From positions 1 through 64,000 of the forward strand of contig NZ_VRTS01000003.1 in assembly GCF_008017755.1 (NCBI RefSeq): 64,000 nt of DNA, written 5' to 3'. Below the pieces are notes generated by a model. That model saw nothing but the letters and a program-made list of their open reading frames with translations. It did no database searches and was not told where the DNA came from. This document shows, in pieces, positions 13,785-41,037 of this stretch. Source of the stretch: Alkalisalibacterium limincola. GTDB taxonomy: Bacteria; Pseudomonadota; Gammaproteobacteria; Xanthomonadales; Xanthomonadaceae. Both the position numbers and the translations under genes were made by a program. Within the stretch, counting starts at the first letter, position 1. The number at the start of each line of letters is the position of its first letter.

Positions 13785-14648
13785 ATGCGGGACTTTTCGA
13801 TGATCGGAAGCAAAAAACTTCTCGCGCAGTACCACGGGTCGAGCCTATCCACTCAATCTTGTCTGGATGCACTGGCAAGAGTGCTTGCAGCCGATGTGGC
13901 TATCGCACGAGCTCTTTTGCTCACACACGGCGACAGGCACGGCTTCTATCTGGAAGTGGAGGAGCCCGAGCCGATATTCATCCGGTGCGGCTTTGCCTCC
14001 GGATACGGAGGGGAGGGGCCCGCGGGACTTGCGATTGCGCTCCATCTCTTGCGGCGGTTTCAGATTGACGTCGACGAAGTCGCGGTGGAGCACGGTCTTT
14101 TGCAACGGCTCGATGAAGGAAATCTGAGGCGAGCTGATTTGGAAGGGATTGTGCAGGCGCGTGTGATCAGGCCGATGCGCACGTACGGCTACATGCATGC
14201 GGGGCTCGAAGGCCGCGAAACCGCAGAGCAACTTATGCGGAGGCAGTTTCCACCAAGTATTCCTTGGTGGACGCTCGACGATCGGCTAACAGACCTAGCT
14301 CTCGACGCTTCTACTAACCCGGACCGGGCCGTGTTTGAAGCCTATCGGCTACTTGAGCAACTGGTGAAGCTCCGCTGTGGAATCCACATGGATGTCTCAG
14401 GTGTCGCGGTGCTCCGTAAGGCGTTTCGAGGCCCAGGCTCGCTCCTGACCTGGACGAGCGTGTCAAATGGCGAGGCTGAGGGACGCGCCCAGTTTTTTGA
14501 GGCAGCGTTCTTGGCGCATCGGAATCCTAGGGCGCATCGTGAGGTCGAGGGAGGTGTAGCGCGTGCTTTTCGCGAATTCGCTATTGCGAACGAGCTCTTT
14601 GTATTGGAGAGCGAGGCTGTGGCACGTATCACCAAGGAAGACGCGTAG
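13785..14648 (+). CDS. Ymh/TIGR02391-family protein with unknown N-terminal domain
   Basis: A 287-residue protein. The C-terminal third matches the TIGR02391 (Ymh) domain: RAVFEAYRLLEQLVKLRCGI, then VAVLRKAF, then EGRAQFFEAAFLAHRNPRAHR (residues 246-251 RNPRAH). Such domains are HEPN-like and common in defence and phage contexts. Residues about 65-135 carry a conserved-looking block (RCGFASGYGGEGP, RPMRTYGYM) that I cannot assign. The start at 13785 has GGAG five bases upstream, whereas longer in-frame starts reach into unrelated sequence. About 260 bases before it look non-coding. It is convergent with the Mrr gene. Confidence 0.72.
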   Translation: MRDFSMIGSKKLLAQYHGSSLSTQSCLDALARVLAADVAIARALLLTHGDRHGFYLEVEEPEPIFIRCGFASGYGGEGPAGLAIALHLLRRFQIDVDEVAVEHGLLQRLDEGNLRRADLEGIVQARVIRPMRTYGYMHAGLEGRETAEQLMRRQFPPSIPWWTLDDRLTDLALDASTNPDRAVFEAYRLLEQLVKLRCGIHMDVSGVAVLRKAFRGPGSLLTWTSVSNGEAEGRAQFFEAAFLAHRNPRAHREVEGGVARAFREFAIANELFVLESEAVARITKEDA

Positions 14649-34454: not shown

Positions 34455-34878
34455 GCGTTGGATTCACTCGCTTGCGGTGCAGCAGCTTCGACAGCACCGG
34501 TGCGAGACCCAGGCGGGAAAGCCATTTCCGGTTCCGGGCGATGAGCGGATACAGGCGGTCGAGCAACGGACGCAGGCGAGGATGCCCGAGCACCTGGGCG
34601 GTGCGACTCAGGCCGGTGGCGCCGTAGGCGAGTTCGAACACCTCCACGCCGTTGAACCACCGGCCCTGGGCGTCGCGGGCCTGGATCCGGGCCATGGCCG
34701 TGTCGACGGAGATGCCCTGCTGCTCGAGGTCGGGGTCGGCGAAACCGGGCCCGGAACAATCCACCAGTTCCAGTGCGTCGTTCTCATCGCGCGACTTCAG
34801 CCCGTGCAGCTCGGAACGGCACATCGGGCAACTGGCGTCGTAATAGATGCGCAGCGGAAAGCTGGCTTTGCTCGTCAT
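34444..34878 (-). CDS. DCC-family (DUF393) thiol-disulfide oxidoreductase-like protein
   Basis: A 144-residue protein with the family start YYDASCPMCRSELHGLKSRD, giving the DxxCPxC motif, and the C-terminal FELAYGATGLS and LYPLIARNR segments. DCC proteins are thioredoxin-like but mostly unassigned. The ATG overlaps the TGA of the upstream regulator gene by four bases, so the two form an operon behind the palindromic operator. Confidence 0.87.
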   Translation of the reverse strand: MTSKASFPLRIYYDASCPMCRSELHGLKSRDENDALELVDCSGPGFADPDLEQQGISVDTAMARIQARDAQGRWFNGVEVFELAYGATGLSRTAQVLGHPRLRPLLDRLYPLIARNRKWLSRLGLAPVLSKLLHRKRVNPTLKR

Positions 34879-35426
34879 GTCTTCTTCCCCTCCCGGACCA
34901 GTTTCTGGATGCGGCTGCCGAGCTTCATGATCTTCATCAGCGTCGCCGGCTCCAGCCTCAGCATCTCCTCGCCCCAGGACGACAGGGCGTTCATCAGCGC
35001 CAGCGTCTCGTTGATCCGCTTGCGGGCGCCGGGGTCCTCCGCGGCGAAGTCGGGGTCGTTCACGCATTCGGTGAGCATGCCGACCGTGGGGTCGAACTCG
35101 CGTGATTTGCGCTCCCGGATCACGGTACGGAACAGTTCCCATACGTCCTGCGAGGTGGAGAAGTGGTCGCGGCGGTCGCCCAGTTGGTGGACCACCTTGA
35201 CCAGGTTGAGGTTCATCAGCTCGCGCAGGCTGTTGCTGACGTTGGAGCGCGCCACCACCAGCGTTTCGGCGATCTGCTCGGCGTGCATCGGCTGGCCGGT
35301 GATGAACAGCAGGGCGTGGATCTGCGCCACGGTTCGGTTGACGCCCCAGCGCGAACCCATCTCGCCCCAGTGCATGACGAAGCGACGGCTGATCGGCGTG
35401 AGGATGTCGGTTGCGGGCGTATCCAT
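34875..35426 (-). CDS. GbsR/MarR family transcriptional regulator
   Basis: A 183-residue regulator matching the GbsR branch of MarR proteins: HWGEMGSRWGVNRTVAQIHALLF, then HAEQIAETLVVARSNVSNSL (recognition helix) and the wing HQLGDRRDHF. The C-terminal half is a coiled dimer region. It is first in an operon with the DCC gene and divergent from an NAD(P)-binding protein. A strong palindrome overlaps its own -35 box, so autoregulation is likely. Confidence 0.9.
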   Translation of the reverse strand: MDTPATDILTPISRRFVMHWGEMGSRWGVNRTVAQIHALLFITGQPMHAEQIAETLVVARSNVSNSLRELMNLNLVKVVHQLGDRRDHFSTSQDVWELFRTVIRERKSREFDPTVGMLTECVNDPDFAAEDPGARKRINETLALMNALSSWGEEMLRLEPATLMKIMKLGSRIQKLVREGKKT

Positions 35427-35453
35427 GTGCGGCTTTCCGAAGGGCTTGTGCTC

Positions 35454-35490
35454 AAGCTAGACCTGTCATACATTTCTGTCAAGACAGAAA
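35454..35490 (-). promoter_or_regulatory. Promoter and palindromic operator of the GbsR-type regulator
   Basis: The nine-base inverted repeat ATTTCTGTC-AA-GACAGAAAT (35472-35491) is perfect. On the minus strand TTGACA (35477-35482), a consensus -35, lies inside it, with a 17-base spacer to TAGCTT (35454-35459) as a weak -10. A dimer bound here would block the regulator promoter and could also affect the divergent gene, whose start is 24 to 75 bases away. Confidence 0.75.
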
Positions 35491-35564
35491 TAACTGACGG
35501 GACGGGGTGGCGCATGGACAGGCTCGGGGGAGTGGCGGAGAAGGAGCGGCACGCGGCAGGGCCG

Positions 35565-36593
35565 ATGCGTGTGCTGGTGCTTGGCGGGTCGGGTTTCATC
35601 GGGCGGCACGCCTCGGCCGCGCTGCAGGCAGCGGGATGCGATGTGGTGGTCGGAACGCGCGATCCGGCCAAGGCGCGCCGCAAGCTCCTCTCGCCCTCGC
35701 CGCAGTGTGCCTTCCGCCGGGTGCGCCTGGAGCGCCACCTTGATCCGCGAAGCTGGGAAGCGGTGCTCGAAGGCGTCGACGCGGTCGTTAACTGCGTCGG
35801 CATCCTTCGCCAGCGCGGCCGCGAAACCTACGACCGCGTGCACCATCTTGCGCCCGCGGCGCTGGCGGCGGCCTGTGCCGAGGGGGGAATCCGCCTGGTG
35901 CACGTCTCGGCATTGGGTCTGCGCGCGCCGGTACGCAGCCGCTTCCTGCATTCCAAGCGCGATGGCGAGGATGCCATCCGGGCGTGCGGGGGCGACTGGT
36001 GCATCGTCCGGCCTTCCCTGCTGGACGGGCGTGGAGGCTTCGGGGCGCGATGGATCCGCCGGGTGGCTGGCTGGCCAGTGCATGCGCTGCCCGCGAACGC
36101 CACGGGGCGCATCGCTGCGCTGGACGTGTGCGACCTGGGCGAGGCCCTGGCGCGGCTGGTCGTCGGGCCTCGCATGGATGGGCCATCCCGCGAGTTCGAG
36201 CTTGGCGGGCTGCAGGAGCGCTCCATCGGGGAGCAGCTGCGCGCGATGTCGCCAAGGACCCGCCCGCCCCTGGGCGTCAAGGTGCCCGTCTGGCTGGCGC
36301 GACTGGCAAGCCACGTGTGCGACCTTCTGCATGTCACCCCCTATTCGTTCGGGCACTACGAGCTGTTGCGCTTCGACAATTGTCCCCGGCCCAACCGCTT
36401 GCCCGAGGTGCTGGGCAGGCTGCCGCGCCCGGTTCCGGCAGCCGAGGGTGGCATCATTCGTTTTACGTCATCGCAATCGAAGGAACCCGCATGCCGCTTG
36501 TCACGCCACTGCCCGCCGACCATGACGCCGAAGTCGCTGAGCTGGCGAAGTTCTTCAACGAAACGCTCGGCTTCTGCCCCAACAGCGTGCTGA
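35565..36593 (+). CDS. NAD(P)-binding epimerase/NDUFA9-like protein
   Basis: About 342 residues. MRVLVLGGSGFIGRH is a classic dinucleotide-binding start, followed by VDAVVNCVGILRQ and LVHVSALGLRA. The family resembles NDUFA9-like atypical SDR proteins, which often lack the catalytic Tyr-Lys pair. An earlier ATG at 35514 would add 17 residues. The frame runs 103 bases into the next gene. Its end after GGIIRF no longer looks family-like, so the true stop may have been lost by another missing base. Likely controlled from the shared palindrome. Confidence 0.78.
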   Translation: MRVLVLGGSGFIGRHASAALQAAGCDVVVGTRDPAKARRKLLSPSPQCAFRRVRLERHLDPRSWEAVLEGVDAVVNCVGILRQRGRETYDRVHHLAPAALAAACAEGGIRLVHVSALGLRAPVRSRFLHSKRDGEDAIRACGGDWCIVRPSLLDGRGGFGARWIRRVAGWPVHALPANATGRIAALDVCDLGEALARLVVGPRMDGPSREFELGGLQERSIGEQLRAMSPRTRPPLGVKVPVWLARLASHVCDLLHVTPYSFGHYELLRFDNCPRPNRLPEVLGRLPRPVPAAEGGIIRFTSSQSKEPACRLSRHCPPTMTPKSLSWRSSSTKRSASAPTAC

Positions 36594-37081
36594 CGATGCA
36601 GCGCCGGCCGGCGATCGCGCGGGCGTTCATCGAGCTCAACAAGGCGGTCATGGCCAACGAGGGTCGTGTGACCGCCGAGCAGAAGCGCCTGGTCGGCTAC
36701 CTGACATCGGCCAATACCGGTTGTCGCTATTGCCAGGCGCACACGGTCCTTGCAGCGCACCGGTACGGTGGCAGCGATGCCCGCCTGGAGTCGATCTGGA
36801 GCTTCCGGGACAGCGCGCTGTACAGCGACGCCGAGAAGGCGGCGTTCGAGTTCGCGCTGGCGGCGTCCGCCGTGCCGAACGCCGTCGATGACGCGATTTC
36901 CGCCAGGATGCGCGAGCACTGGGACGAGGGCGAGATCGTGGAGATCCTGGGCGTGGTGTCACTGTTCGGCTATCTGAACCGCTGGAACGACAGCATGGGG
37001 ACCACTCTGGAGGACGGTGCACAGCAGGCCGGCGAGCGCTGGCTGGGCGCCGGGGGCTGGTCCGCTGGAAAGCACCGCTGA
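36491..37081 (+). CDS. Carboxymuconolactone decarboxylase/AhpD-family protein
   Basis: A 196-residue helical protein with the redox motif NTGCRYCQAHT (Cys78, Cys81, His84) and the upstream LTMQRRPAIARAFIELNKAVM segment typical of uncharacterised peroxidase-related members. AhpD-like proteins reduce peroxidases or act as alkylhydroperoxidases. GAAGGAA lies a few bases before the ATG. It probably shares a transcript with the NAD(P)-binding gene. Confidence 0.87.
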   Translation: MPLVTPLPADHDAEVAELAKFFNETLGFCPNSVLTMQRRPAIARAFIELNKAVMANEGRVTAEQKRLVGYLTSANTGCRYCQAHTVLAAHRYGGSDARLESIWSFRDSALYSDAEKAAFEFALAASAVPNAVDDAISARMREHWDEGEIVEILGVVSLFGYLNRWNDSMGTTLEDGAQQAGERWLGAGGWSAGKHR

Positions 37082-39567: not shown

Positions 39568-41037
39568 GTGGCGTCGGCAGCGGAGCGTAAATCAAAGGGG
39601 GCAGGTGAAGTATCGATGCGGGGCCGGGTCGGGCTGGTGCTCGGCCCGCTGTTGTTCGCCCTGTTCTATTTCATCCCGGCGCTGACCGGGCTTGAAGATT
39701 CGCCACGCGCGGTCCTGGCGGTGACGCTGTGGGTGGCCACGTGGTGGATCACCGAGGCGCTGCCGATCCCGGCCACGTCGTTGATGCCGATCTTCCTGTT
39801 GCCGATCACCGGCGGTGCGGACGAGCGCACCGCCTCGATGGCCTACGGCAACCCGATCGTATTCATGTACATGGGCGGCTTCACGATCGCGCTGGCGATC
39901 CAGAAGTGGGACCTGCACAAGCGCATCGCGATGGCGATCCTGACGATGGTGGGCACGGGCGGCAGCCGCATCACGCTGGGCATCATCCTGGCCACCGCCT
40001 TCCTGTCGATGTGGATCTCCAACGCGGCCACCGCGCTGATGATGCTGCCGATCGGACTGGCGCTGATCGAGGAGATCAAGCGCGAGCAGCTCTACGACGA
40101 CGAGTCGCTCGGACGGTTTGCCAAGGGCCTGCTGTTGTCGATCGCCTACGCCGCCTCGATCGGTGGCCTGGCCACGTTGATCGGGTCGGTGCCTAATGCG
40201 GTGTTCGCTGCCGTGTCGGCGCAGAACCTGGGGCGCACGGTGACCTTCGCCGACTGGTTCTTCTTCGCGGCACCTCTGACGGTGCTGATGCTGGCGGTGT
40301 TGTACGTGTACATGACGAAGTTCCGGTTCCGCGTCCGCGCGCGCCAGGACATCGGGGCGGGGTTCGCCCGCGAGCAGCTGCACCGGCTGGGCCCGATGTC
40401 GTTCGAGGAAAAGGCGGTGCTGGCGGTGTTCGCCACCGTGGGCACGCTGTGGATCGGAAGCGGCTTCCTGCCCGAGCCATTGCGGCTGTCGGACACGTCG
40501 ATCTCGATGATCGGTGCGGTCAGCCTGTTCCTGTTGCCGGCACGCAAGGGCCGCGGGCGGCTGATGGGCTGGCCGGACATGCGCAACCTGCCCTGGGGCC
40601 TGCTGTTGCTGTTCGGGGGCGGGCTGTCGCTGGCTGCCGCGTTCGAGTCCTCGGGACTCACGGTGTGGTTCGGCGGCCTTCTGGCTGGCCTGCAGGTGTT
40701 GCCCTACGTGCTGATCATCGTGTCGCTGGCCACGATCGTGCTGTTGATGACCGAGATCATGTCGAATACCGCGGTATCCAACATGCTGATACCGGTGGGC
40801 ATCGGTCTGGCGCTTGGCATCGGCGCCGATCCGCACGCGATCATGGTGGTCATCGCCTTGTCCGCCAGCTGCGCCTTCATGCTGCCGATCTCCACGCCAC
40901 CCAATGCAGCGGTGTTCGCGTCGGACTACATCACCATCGACGACATGGTGAAGGCGGGCATCGGCATGAACATCGCGGCGGTGGGACTGATCAGTGCGTT
41001 CGTGCTGCTGTGGCAGCCCATCGCGATGGGCTGCTAG
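39568..41037 (+). CDS. SLC13/DASS family dicarboxylate transporter
   Basis: A 489-residue transporter with about 12 helices. Family motifs include WWITEALPIPATSLMPIFLLP, ISNAATALMMLPIG in the first SNT-like loop, and MSNTAVSNMLIP with SCAFMLPISTPPNAAVFAS in the second. It probably imports C4 or larger dicarboxylates with sodium. The GTG at 39568 is close to GGGGAGGG; an ATG at 39616 is an alternative start with a weaker site. Confidence 0.9.
   Translation: MASAAERKSKGAGEVSMRGRVGLVLGPLLFALFYFIPALTGLEDSPRAVLAVTLWVATWWITEALPIPATSLMPIFLLPITGGADERTASMAYGNPIVFMYMGGFTIALAIQKWDLHKRIAMAILTMVGTGGSRITLGIILATAFLSMWISNAATALMMLPIGLALIEEIKREQLYDDESLGRFAKGLLLSIAYAASIGGLATLIGSVPNAVFAAVSAQNLGRTVTFADWFFFAAPLTVLMLAVLYVYMTKFRFRVRARQDIGAGFAREQLHRLGPMSFEEKAVLAVFATVGTLWIGSGFLPEPLRLSDTSISMIGAVSLFLLPARKGRGRLMGWPDMRNLPWGLLLLFGGGLSLAAAFESSGLTVWFGGLLAGLQVLPYVLIIVSLATIVLLMTEIMSNTAVSNMLIPVGIGLALGIGADPHAIMVVIALSASCAFMLPISTPPNAAVFASDYITIDDMVKAGIGMNIAAVGLISAFVLLWQPIAMGC

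Follow-up and report, generated by a model that had tools for sequence, protein, structure and literature searches.

The window, the whole stretch of 64,000 nucleotides that was analysed, carries on its minus strand, at positions 34875..35426, the gene of a GbsR-type (MarR_2) transcriptional regulator of 183 aa (stop included), recognized by Pfam, PDB and fold matches. A gene for a DCC1-like thiol-disulfide oxidoreductase (DUF393, Pfam PF04134; 34444..34878, minus strand) is probably co-transcribed after it, because the DCC start codon overlaps the regulator stop; in 10 of 27 close loci, a DCC gene follows the regulator. On the plus strand, an atypical, NAD(P)H-binding SDR (35514..36593; PF13460, with the residues from 35514-36491 searched) is encoded. 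The similarity of its relatives begins near residue 13–18, and the start may be located at about 35565. The SDR frame remains open to 36593, overlapping the next gene, which encodes a carboxymuconolactone-decarboxylase/peroxidase-related protein (CMD; 36491..37081, plus strand; Pfam PF02627, with TIGR01926 below cutoff). From this overlap, the CMD-type gene is probably part of the same transcript as the SDR gene. The neighbours of the regulator are SDR, DCC, CMD, DUF3228 and gltS genes, and all 27 close loci share the divergent orientation of the SDR and regulator genes seen in the window. The arrangement given in the preliminary description, a palindrome between a divergent GbsR-type regulator and an NAD(P)-binding gene, was thus confirmed, with the MarR_2 regulator on the minus and the SDR on the plus strand.

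Two further reading frames were observed at this locus. One is a plus strand open frame of 327 codons at 34477-35460, antisense through the DCC and regulator genes. The other is a backward extension of the SDR frame, which stays open to 35163 (35163-35513, plus strand), across the palindrome and the start of the regulator gene. Both are usual effects of a high G+C content and give no evidence of genes.

The regulator reached 35.3 bits with Pfam MarR_2 (cutoff 27) and qualifies as a MarR-type winged helix-turn-helix protein. Its nearest PDB sequence was Mj223/1ku9 (phmmer E 2.1e-8), which has served as the template for GbsR models, as described in the available parts of two reports (PMC6207618, PMC7396694). 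In Foldseek, 1ku9 was likewise first by E-value (3.6e-8, TM 0.57/0.66), with 4nb5 having the higher TM (0.65/0.80). The structural model of the regulator (pLDDT 93) has a helix at residues 60–72 and strands at 77–79/88–90; residues 60–72 constitute the predicted recognition helix (ARSNVSNSLRE at 59–69), which would be expected to read DNA. By its MarR_2 score, the Mj223/1ku9 match and the fold, the protein is classified as a GbsR-type member of the MarR superfamily, the label that it had been given from the letters alone. Two narrower assignments were rejected. A choline sensor of the GbsR/CudC/OpuAR subgroup is contradicted by the neighbouring genes and by the NCBIfam score, with 42.1 bits versus a cutoff of 218 for the choline-regulator equivalog NF047500. 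Membership in the CydE/CioR cytochrome-bd subgroup was dismissed as well: there is no cyd gene among the neighbours searched, the operator arms read TTTCTG, and the protein falls outside the clade of 11 cyd-linked regulators. In the open-licence PubMed Central literature, no paper was found on a GbsR-type subgroup beside SDR/DCC genes or on the operator strings.

The 20-bp putative operator, ATTTCTGTC-AA-GACAGAAAT, was matched exactly at 35472..35491 and has no strand assigned. The string ATTTCTGTCAAGACAGAAAT occupies exactly these positions, with perfect 9-mer arms around a 2-base centre, and the core half-sites read ATTTCTG-N6-CAGAAAT. The minus strand TTGACA lies inside it (35482-35477), so that both the 20-base palindrome of the preliminary description and the hexamer within it were found precisely as claimed. 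The span of 35454-35491 given there runs from the outer end of the operator to the end of the putative minus strand −10 element TAGCTT (35459-35454).

Length was rejected as a mark of significance, as two palindromes with exact 9-base arms and a 2-base gap were seen in the window versus a mean of 0.53 expected from 60 first-order Markov sequences. The palindrome is also outside the 25 longest of the 135 inverted-repeat pairs in the window. It stands out only by being A+T-rich (14 of 20 bases) in a window of 65.8% G+C; for 9-base arms with gaps of 0–6 and at least 12 A/T, 0.017 palindromes were expected and two observed, the site at 35472 and one at 14249. A sequence search with the centre left free and up to three mismatches gave a single match, and none in 100 shuffles. 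A longer perfect palindrome, GCAGCCCATCGCGATGGGCTGC, was noticed at 41013-41034, near the 3′ end of the 39568-41037 open frame. Judged from comparisons among related sequences, evolutionary conservation and not bare symmetry is what raises the palindrome at 35472 above chance.

This conservation was assessed in an alignment of 26 intergenic regions, consisting of the window and 25 hand-chosen close relatives with regulator identities of 66–80%; L039, whose motif lies 247 bp ahead of the matched start, and L035, a repeat of L011, were left out. Across the 26 loci, 15 of the 20 operator positions are invariant and the remaining ones are kept in 24 or 25, except for offset 8 (C in 17, A in 9), while columns outside the conserved block mostly carry 0.1–0.5 bit. 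TTGACA and the remaining parts of the arms show about the same degree of conservation, and in every one of the 26 loci the operator stays with the regulator gene. The symmetry may extend further outwards, to GTCA at 35465-35468 and TGAC at 35495-35498, symmetric about the palindrome centre and defining a possible extended operator at 35465..35498 (no strand assigned). The C/G pair at operator offset −5/24 is complementary in 25/26 loci, the next two outward pairs in 16/26 and 18/26, and the innermost pair (−4/23) in only 11/26. These outer elements may mean that the regulator dimer contacts more than the 20-bp palindrome, or that another dimer binds as well.

At the family level, the core ATTTCTGTN4ACAGAAAT was present in 23 of 198 genomes, with one copy each, and the backwards control of the core had no match in the 198. 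All 23 core sites are directly upstream of a regulator, which has an identity of at least 70% in 18 cases and of 54–58% (53–56% in the alignment) in five. Any relative of the regulator was matched in 47 of the 198 genomes; the strict core was absent from 24 of these, where most relatives are 42–49% identical, and from all 151 genomes without a regulator match. An SDR ortholog (E ≤ 1e-40, with at most 11 candidates scored per genome) was detected in 20 genomes, the same 20 that possess a regulator with at least 70% identity. The exact core is found in 18 of them, and the other two, G127 and G163, differ at one outer base. Across these family genomes, the regulator, the SDR and the putative site travel together. 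The genome of origin itself (95.5% complete, 20 contigs) was searched for further copies, as the preliminary description had suggested, and a single mismatch-free copy was obtained. No second convincing site appeared in it, since allowing two mismatches in the relaxed pattern adds three places and allowing three adds two, with one each in the reversed control. A multi-gene regulon in this genome was therefore rejected, and the single copy points to a local switch rather than a wide regulon.

The putative −35 element of the regulator promoter, TTGACA (35477..35482, minus strand), lies within the operator and is exact in 25/26 loci. It is followed after a 17-bp spacer by a putative −10 element, TAGCTT (35454..35459, minus strand), with 3/6 consensus bases in the window; at this position and with identical spacing, TA[GA]NCT was found in 16/26 loci and TAGCTT in three. 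On the plus strand, a putative −35 element TTGTGC (35446..35451, 3/6 consensus in the window) and a putative −10 element TACATT (35469..35474), also 17 bp apart, were assigned to the SDR promoter. The last three bases of this −10 element are the first three, leftmost bases of the operator. Among the 26 loci, the SDR −35 position begins with TTG in 25 (TTGC 17, TTGG 7, TTGT 1), and the −10 position reads TATATT in 21 and TACATT in three. The promoter hexamers were picked after seeing the alignment, and their mean match to the 12 consensus bases was 9.0 for the regulator promoter and 8.2 for the SDR promoter versus a background mean of 2.3. In the window itself the matches were 9/12 and 7/12, respectively, and a strict sigma-70 scan of 35300-35700 returned no promoter. 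In view of this negative scan and the poor −10 element in the window, the promoter assignment rests on the conserved spacing in relatives. The preliminary description of a consensus −35 box holds for TTGACA itself, with the poor −10 partner and the negative strict scan as reservations. On the SDR side, conservation continues past the palindrome into the −10 element (ATAT). The opposite end has no mirror image of this stretch, an asymmetry that favours a promoter element over an extension of the operator. These features suggest a second promoter, for the SDR gene, with a −10 element overlapping the other end of the operator, and hence one site over both promoters.

We consider it highly probable that the adjacent GbsR-type repressor has the palindrome as its only local operator and, bound there, would occlude both divergent promoters. 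The two ATTTCTG half-sites would be contacted by the recognition helices of a repressor dimer, which would cover the −35 element of its own promoter on the minus strand together with the −10 element of the divergent SDR promoter on the plus strand. Given the overlap with these two elements, the bound repressor would block RNA polymerase at both interleaved promoters, and the outcome would be autorepression of the regulator and DCC genes and repression of the SDR and CMD genes. An inducer, which could be a small molecule, a metal or a redox signal, would free the operator. The reading as an autoregulatory site, already proposed in the preliminary description, gains support from the retention of the putative operator with the regulator in 26 loci, from its presence upstream of 49 of 51 regulators and from its match to the footprint architecture of CydE, as far as that is given in the available part of PMC6096048.

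An alternative that we regard as rather unlikely, though the least so of those considered, is that the operator acts on the promoter of the regulator only. The SDR gene would then be driven from elsewhere or constitutively, and its presumed promoter elements would represent the flank of the operator and the region of the regulator transcript start. The weakness of the SDR promoter in the window fits this alternative, and so does the conserved GCAAG, which we read as part of the SDR −35 region; it is also near the expected start of the regulator transcript and could mark that start instead. However, the −10-like TATATT is conserved beyond the palindrome with no counterpart on the other side, the SDR and regulator genes are divergent in each of the 27 close loci, and lineages with a tandem arrangement place a second operator before SDR- or DCC-type genes (18 loci). 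The operator therefore probably controls both divergent promoters and not that of the regulator alone.

Wider relatives were covered by 60 distinct regulators, with matches spanning fewer than about 140 residues dropped. The relaxed motif.TTTC.[GA]N6[CT].GAAA. is present within 400 bp upstream of 57 of them. Because nine of the 60 (L110-L118) had entered the set through the operator pattern, we quote the count for the regulators found by protein similarity alone, which is 49 of 51. For two of the regulators missed, L089 and L090, the first site is present in degenerate form only (10/12), and for the third, L113, the same place (L126) shows an 11/12 site 42 bp upstream. The density of the motif was 58 in 23,942 upstream bases versus 15 in 570,646 other bases, and these 15 sites are all located just 3′ of the regulator, each followed by an SDR- or DCC-type gene. 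At the class level, the strict core occurred in 11 of 369 genomes, namely the genome of origin and 10 others with 14 sites, of which 13 are beside a GbsR-type, SDR or DCC gene; the backwards control gave one match in the 369 genomes (G496). The class-level protein search yielded 29 regulator matches in 28 of the 369 genomes, including that of the window. The strict motif is upstream of 19 of these regulators, and a 10–11/12 match is located 33–60 bp upstream of eight others; no motif was found upstream of the remaining two, L152 and L153. At the order level, searches of five genomes around G297 and of 57 around G278 yielded one additional genome, G590, with locus L124.

Several of the more distant loci have a tandem layout, in which the regulator is followed by DCC, DUF1731-type SDR and DUF4166 genes (L092; in L043 DCC and SDR are fused). 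In L047, an SDR carrying a DoxX domain follows it, together with DUF2269 and DCC. In some of these loci, the first operator runs into the −10 element of the regulator promoter and not into the −35 (TTGACA-N17-TATTAT in L042 and L043, TTGACA-N17-TAATTT in L116). The operator thus keeps a relation to the promoter but to no single box, which argues for its conservation as an operator in its own right.

In the distant tandem lineages, a second operator frequently precedes the enzyme genes (18 loci; L092:6830, L094:6783, L042:4566, L043:4574, L116:2080, L115:1501, L110:1501, L047:4535 and others). These 18 sites are not independent cases, with L091, L092, L094 and L095 being close kin. Fifteen come from the motif count; the other three, L124, L133 and L143, were picked up with a filter for T-runs close by and are also the only further second sites displayed. 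A run of at least five T (5–8 T) ends 8 (11 sites), 9 (one) or 11 (four) bases upstream of 16 of the 18 second operators, or 13 of the 15 from the motif count alone; of the other two, one has a T-run only 31 bases away and one is without any. Among 44 of the 60 first sites, taken as a control, a T-run within 22 bases was found in four. Adjacent hairpins are strong in L092, L094, L095, L115 and L143, by energies without a shuffle control, and in L042, L091, L114 and L117 no adjacent hairpin was found. The combination of second operator and T-run may simply be a terminator for the regulator gene ahead of a new promoter, although promoter matches at the 15 second sites scanned reached only 7–9/12. 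A more elaborate and, in our view, improbable possibility is that the T-run is the U-tract of an intrinsic terminator, where the bound repressor would stall RNA polymerase as a roadblock and so gate read-through into the enzyme genes; the divergent layout of the window would then have arisen by rearrangement, with a single site taking the place of two.

The proposed occlusion by a dimer at a local operator resembles known GbsR-type systems, described here from the available parts of the respective papers. CydE of Alishewanella sp. WH16-1 is a GbsR-type repressor of cydEAB, the footprint of which covers TATTTCAGAAATTTCTGAAAGTTCA, while a second bound stretch has a different sequence (PMC6096048). 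The protected site ATTTCAGAAATTTCTGAAAG has the same ATTTCNG-N6-CNGAAA architecture as the window site, and CydE likewise regulates its own transcription unit (PMC6096048). In contrast, both CydE arms read TTTCAG and those of the window TTTCTG. The target of CydE is cytochrome bd in one operon, whereas the likely targets in the window are the divergent SDR and the DCC protein. The putative operator is a member of a conserved family shared with CydE-type regulators. CioR of Chromobacterium violaceum, which also is a GbsR-type direct autorepressor, was reported to bind and repress its own operon by reporter, RT-qPCR and gel shift assays; it differs in controlling cioAB and in being released from DNA by zinc and iron in vitro, and no operator motif is described for it there (PMC11837568). 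In Bacillus subtilis, with the namesakes of the family, the OpcR operator overlaps −35 boxes, as we propose for the window, and for GbsR a roadblock mechanism downstream of the start site has been described (PMC7396694). Both control choline/betaine genes, whereas the window protein had 42 versus 218 bits on the CudC cutoff.

Differences in the recognition helix go along with differences in the operator between the SDR/DCC-linked and the cytochrome-bd-linked paralogues. In a clade of 11 members (support 100/100), cydA is directly downstream in all 11, the helix is SRSNVSMG and the sixth base of both ATTTCNG arms is A in 11/11. The other 49 regulators all have the helix ARSNVS[TN]S, and T is found in both of their arms in 40 cases, mixed arms in five, A in both in one (L039) and no strict site in three. 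The window helix is without the S59/M65 of the cyd-linked clade. Among the class-level matches, S59 is accompanied by S66 or V65 in some regulators, so that positions 59 and 65 serve as the more consistent markers; mixed arms are seen with two A59/T65 regulators, L137 and L141. This pattern suggests residues 59 and 65 as specificity residues; it stems from a single deep split and not from independent repeats, and their role is accordingly suggested and unproven. Both paralogue types occur together in four family genomes (G102, G127, G163 and G195).

These comparisons also bear on the reading that the palindrome is bound by a transcription factor other than the GbsR-type protein encoded next to it. 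Many families use palindromic operators, yet we judge this very unlikely: none of the 151 family genomes without a regulator match contains the strict core, which lies beside a regulator in 23/23 cases; the motif precedes 49/51 regulators and agrees with the footprint reported for a GbsR-type relative; and helix and operator types differ together between the paralogue groups. It is least credible of all that the palindrome is a chance symmetry round a strong −35 box, kept merely as a promoter: TTGACA is indeed inside it and about 0.5 such palindromes are expected per window, but the arms outside TTGACA are about equally conserved, and distant palindromes such as those of L042, L043 and L116 run into the −10, do not themselves contain TTGACA and are thus conserved independently of a −35 element.

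Binding of the adjacent repressor to its own site remains the preferred reading, and the site adds a well supported case to a known kind of genetic switch, solid and ordinary in nature. Through it, the GbsR-type subgroup beside SDR/DCC genes gains a precise putative operator and candidate targets, and the common half-site ties this subgroup to the cytochrome-bd regulators. The pairing of helix and half-site (A59 and T/N65 mostly with TTTCT, S59 and M65 with TTTCA) offers a small testable case of insulation between duplicated repressors, and the SDR, DCC, DUF4166, DUF2269 and DoxX-domain genes gain a shared regulatory handle.

Single occurrences of the exact core were also seen in other settings. 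At L119:1501 (G446), it stands without a GbsR-type, SDR or DCC match within 1.5 kb on each side. At L122:1501 (G373, contig 37), it precedes a DUF1731-type SDR gene, without a regulator match in the stretch examined, and the same genome encodes a regulator with its own site on a different contig.
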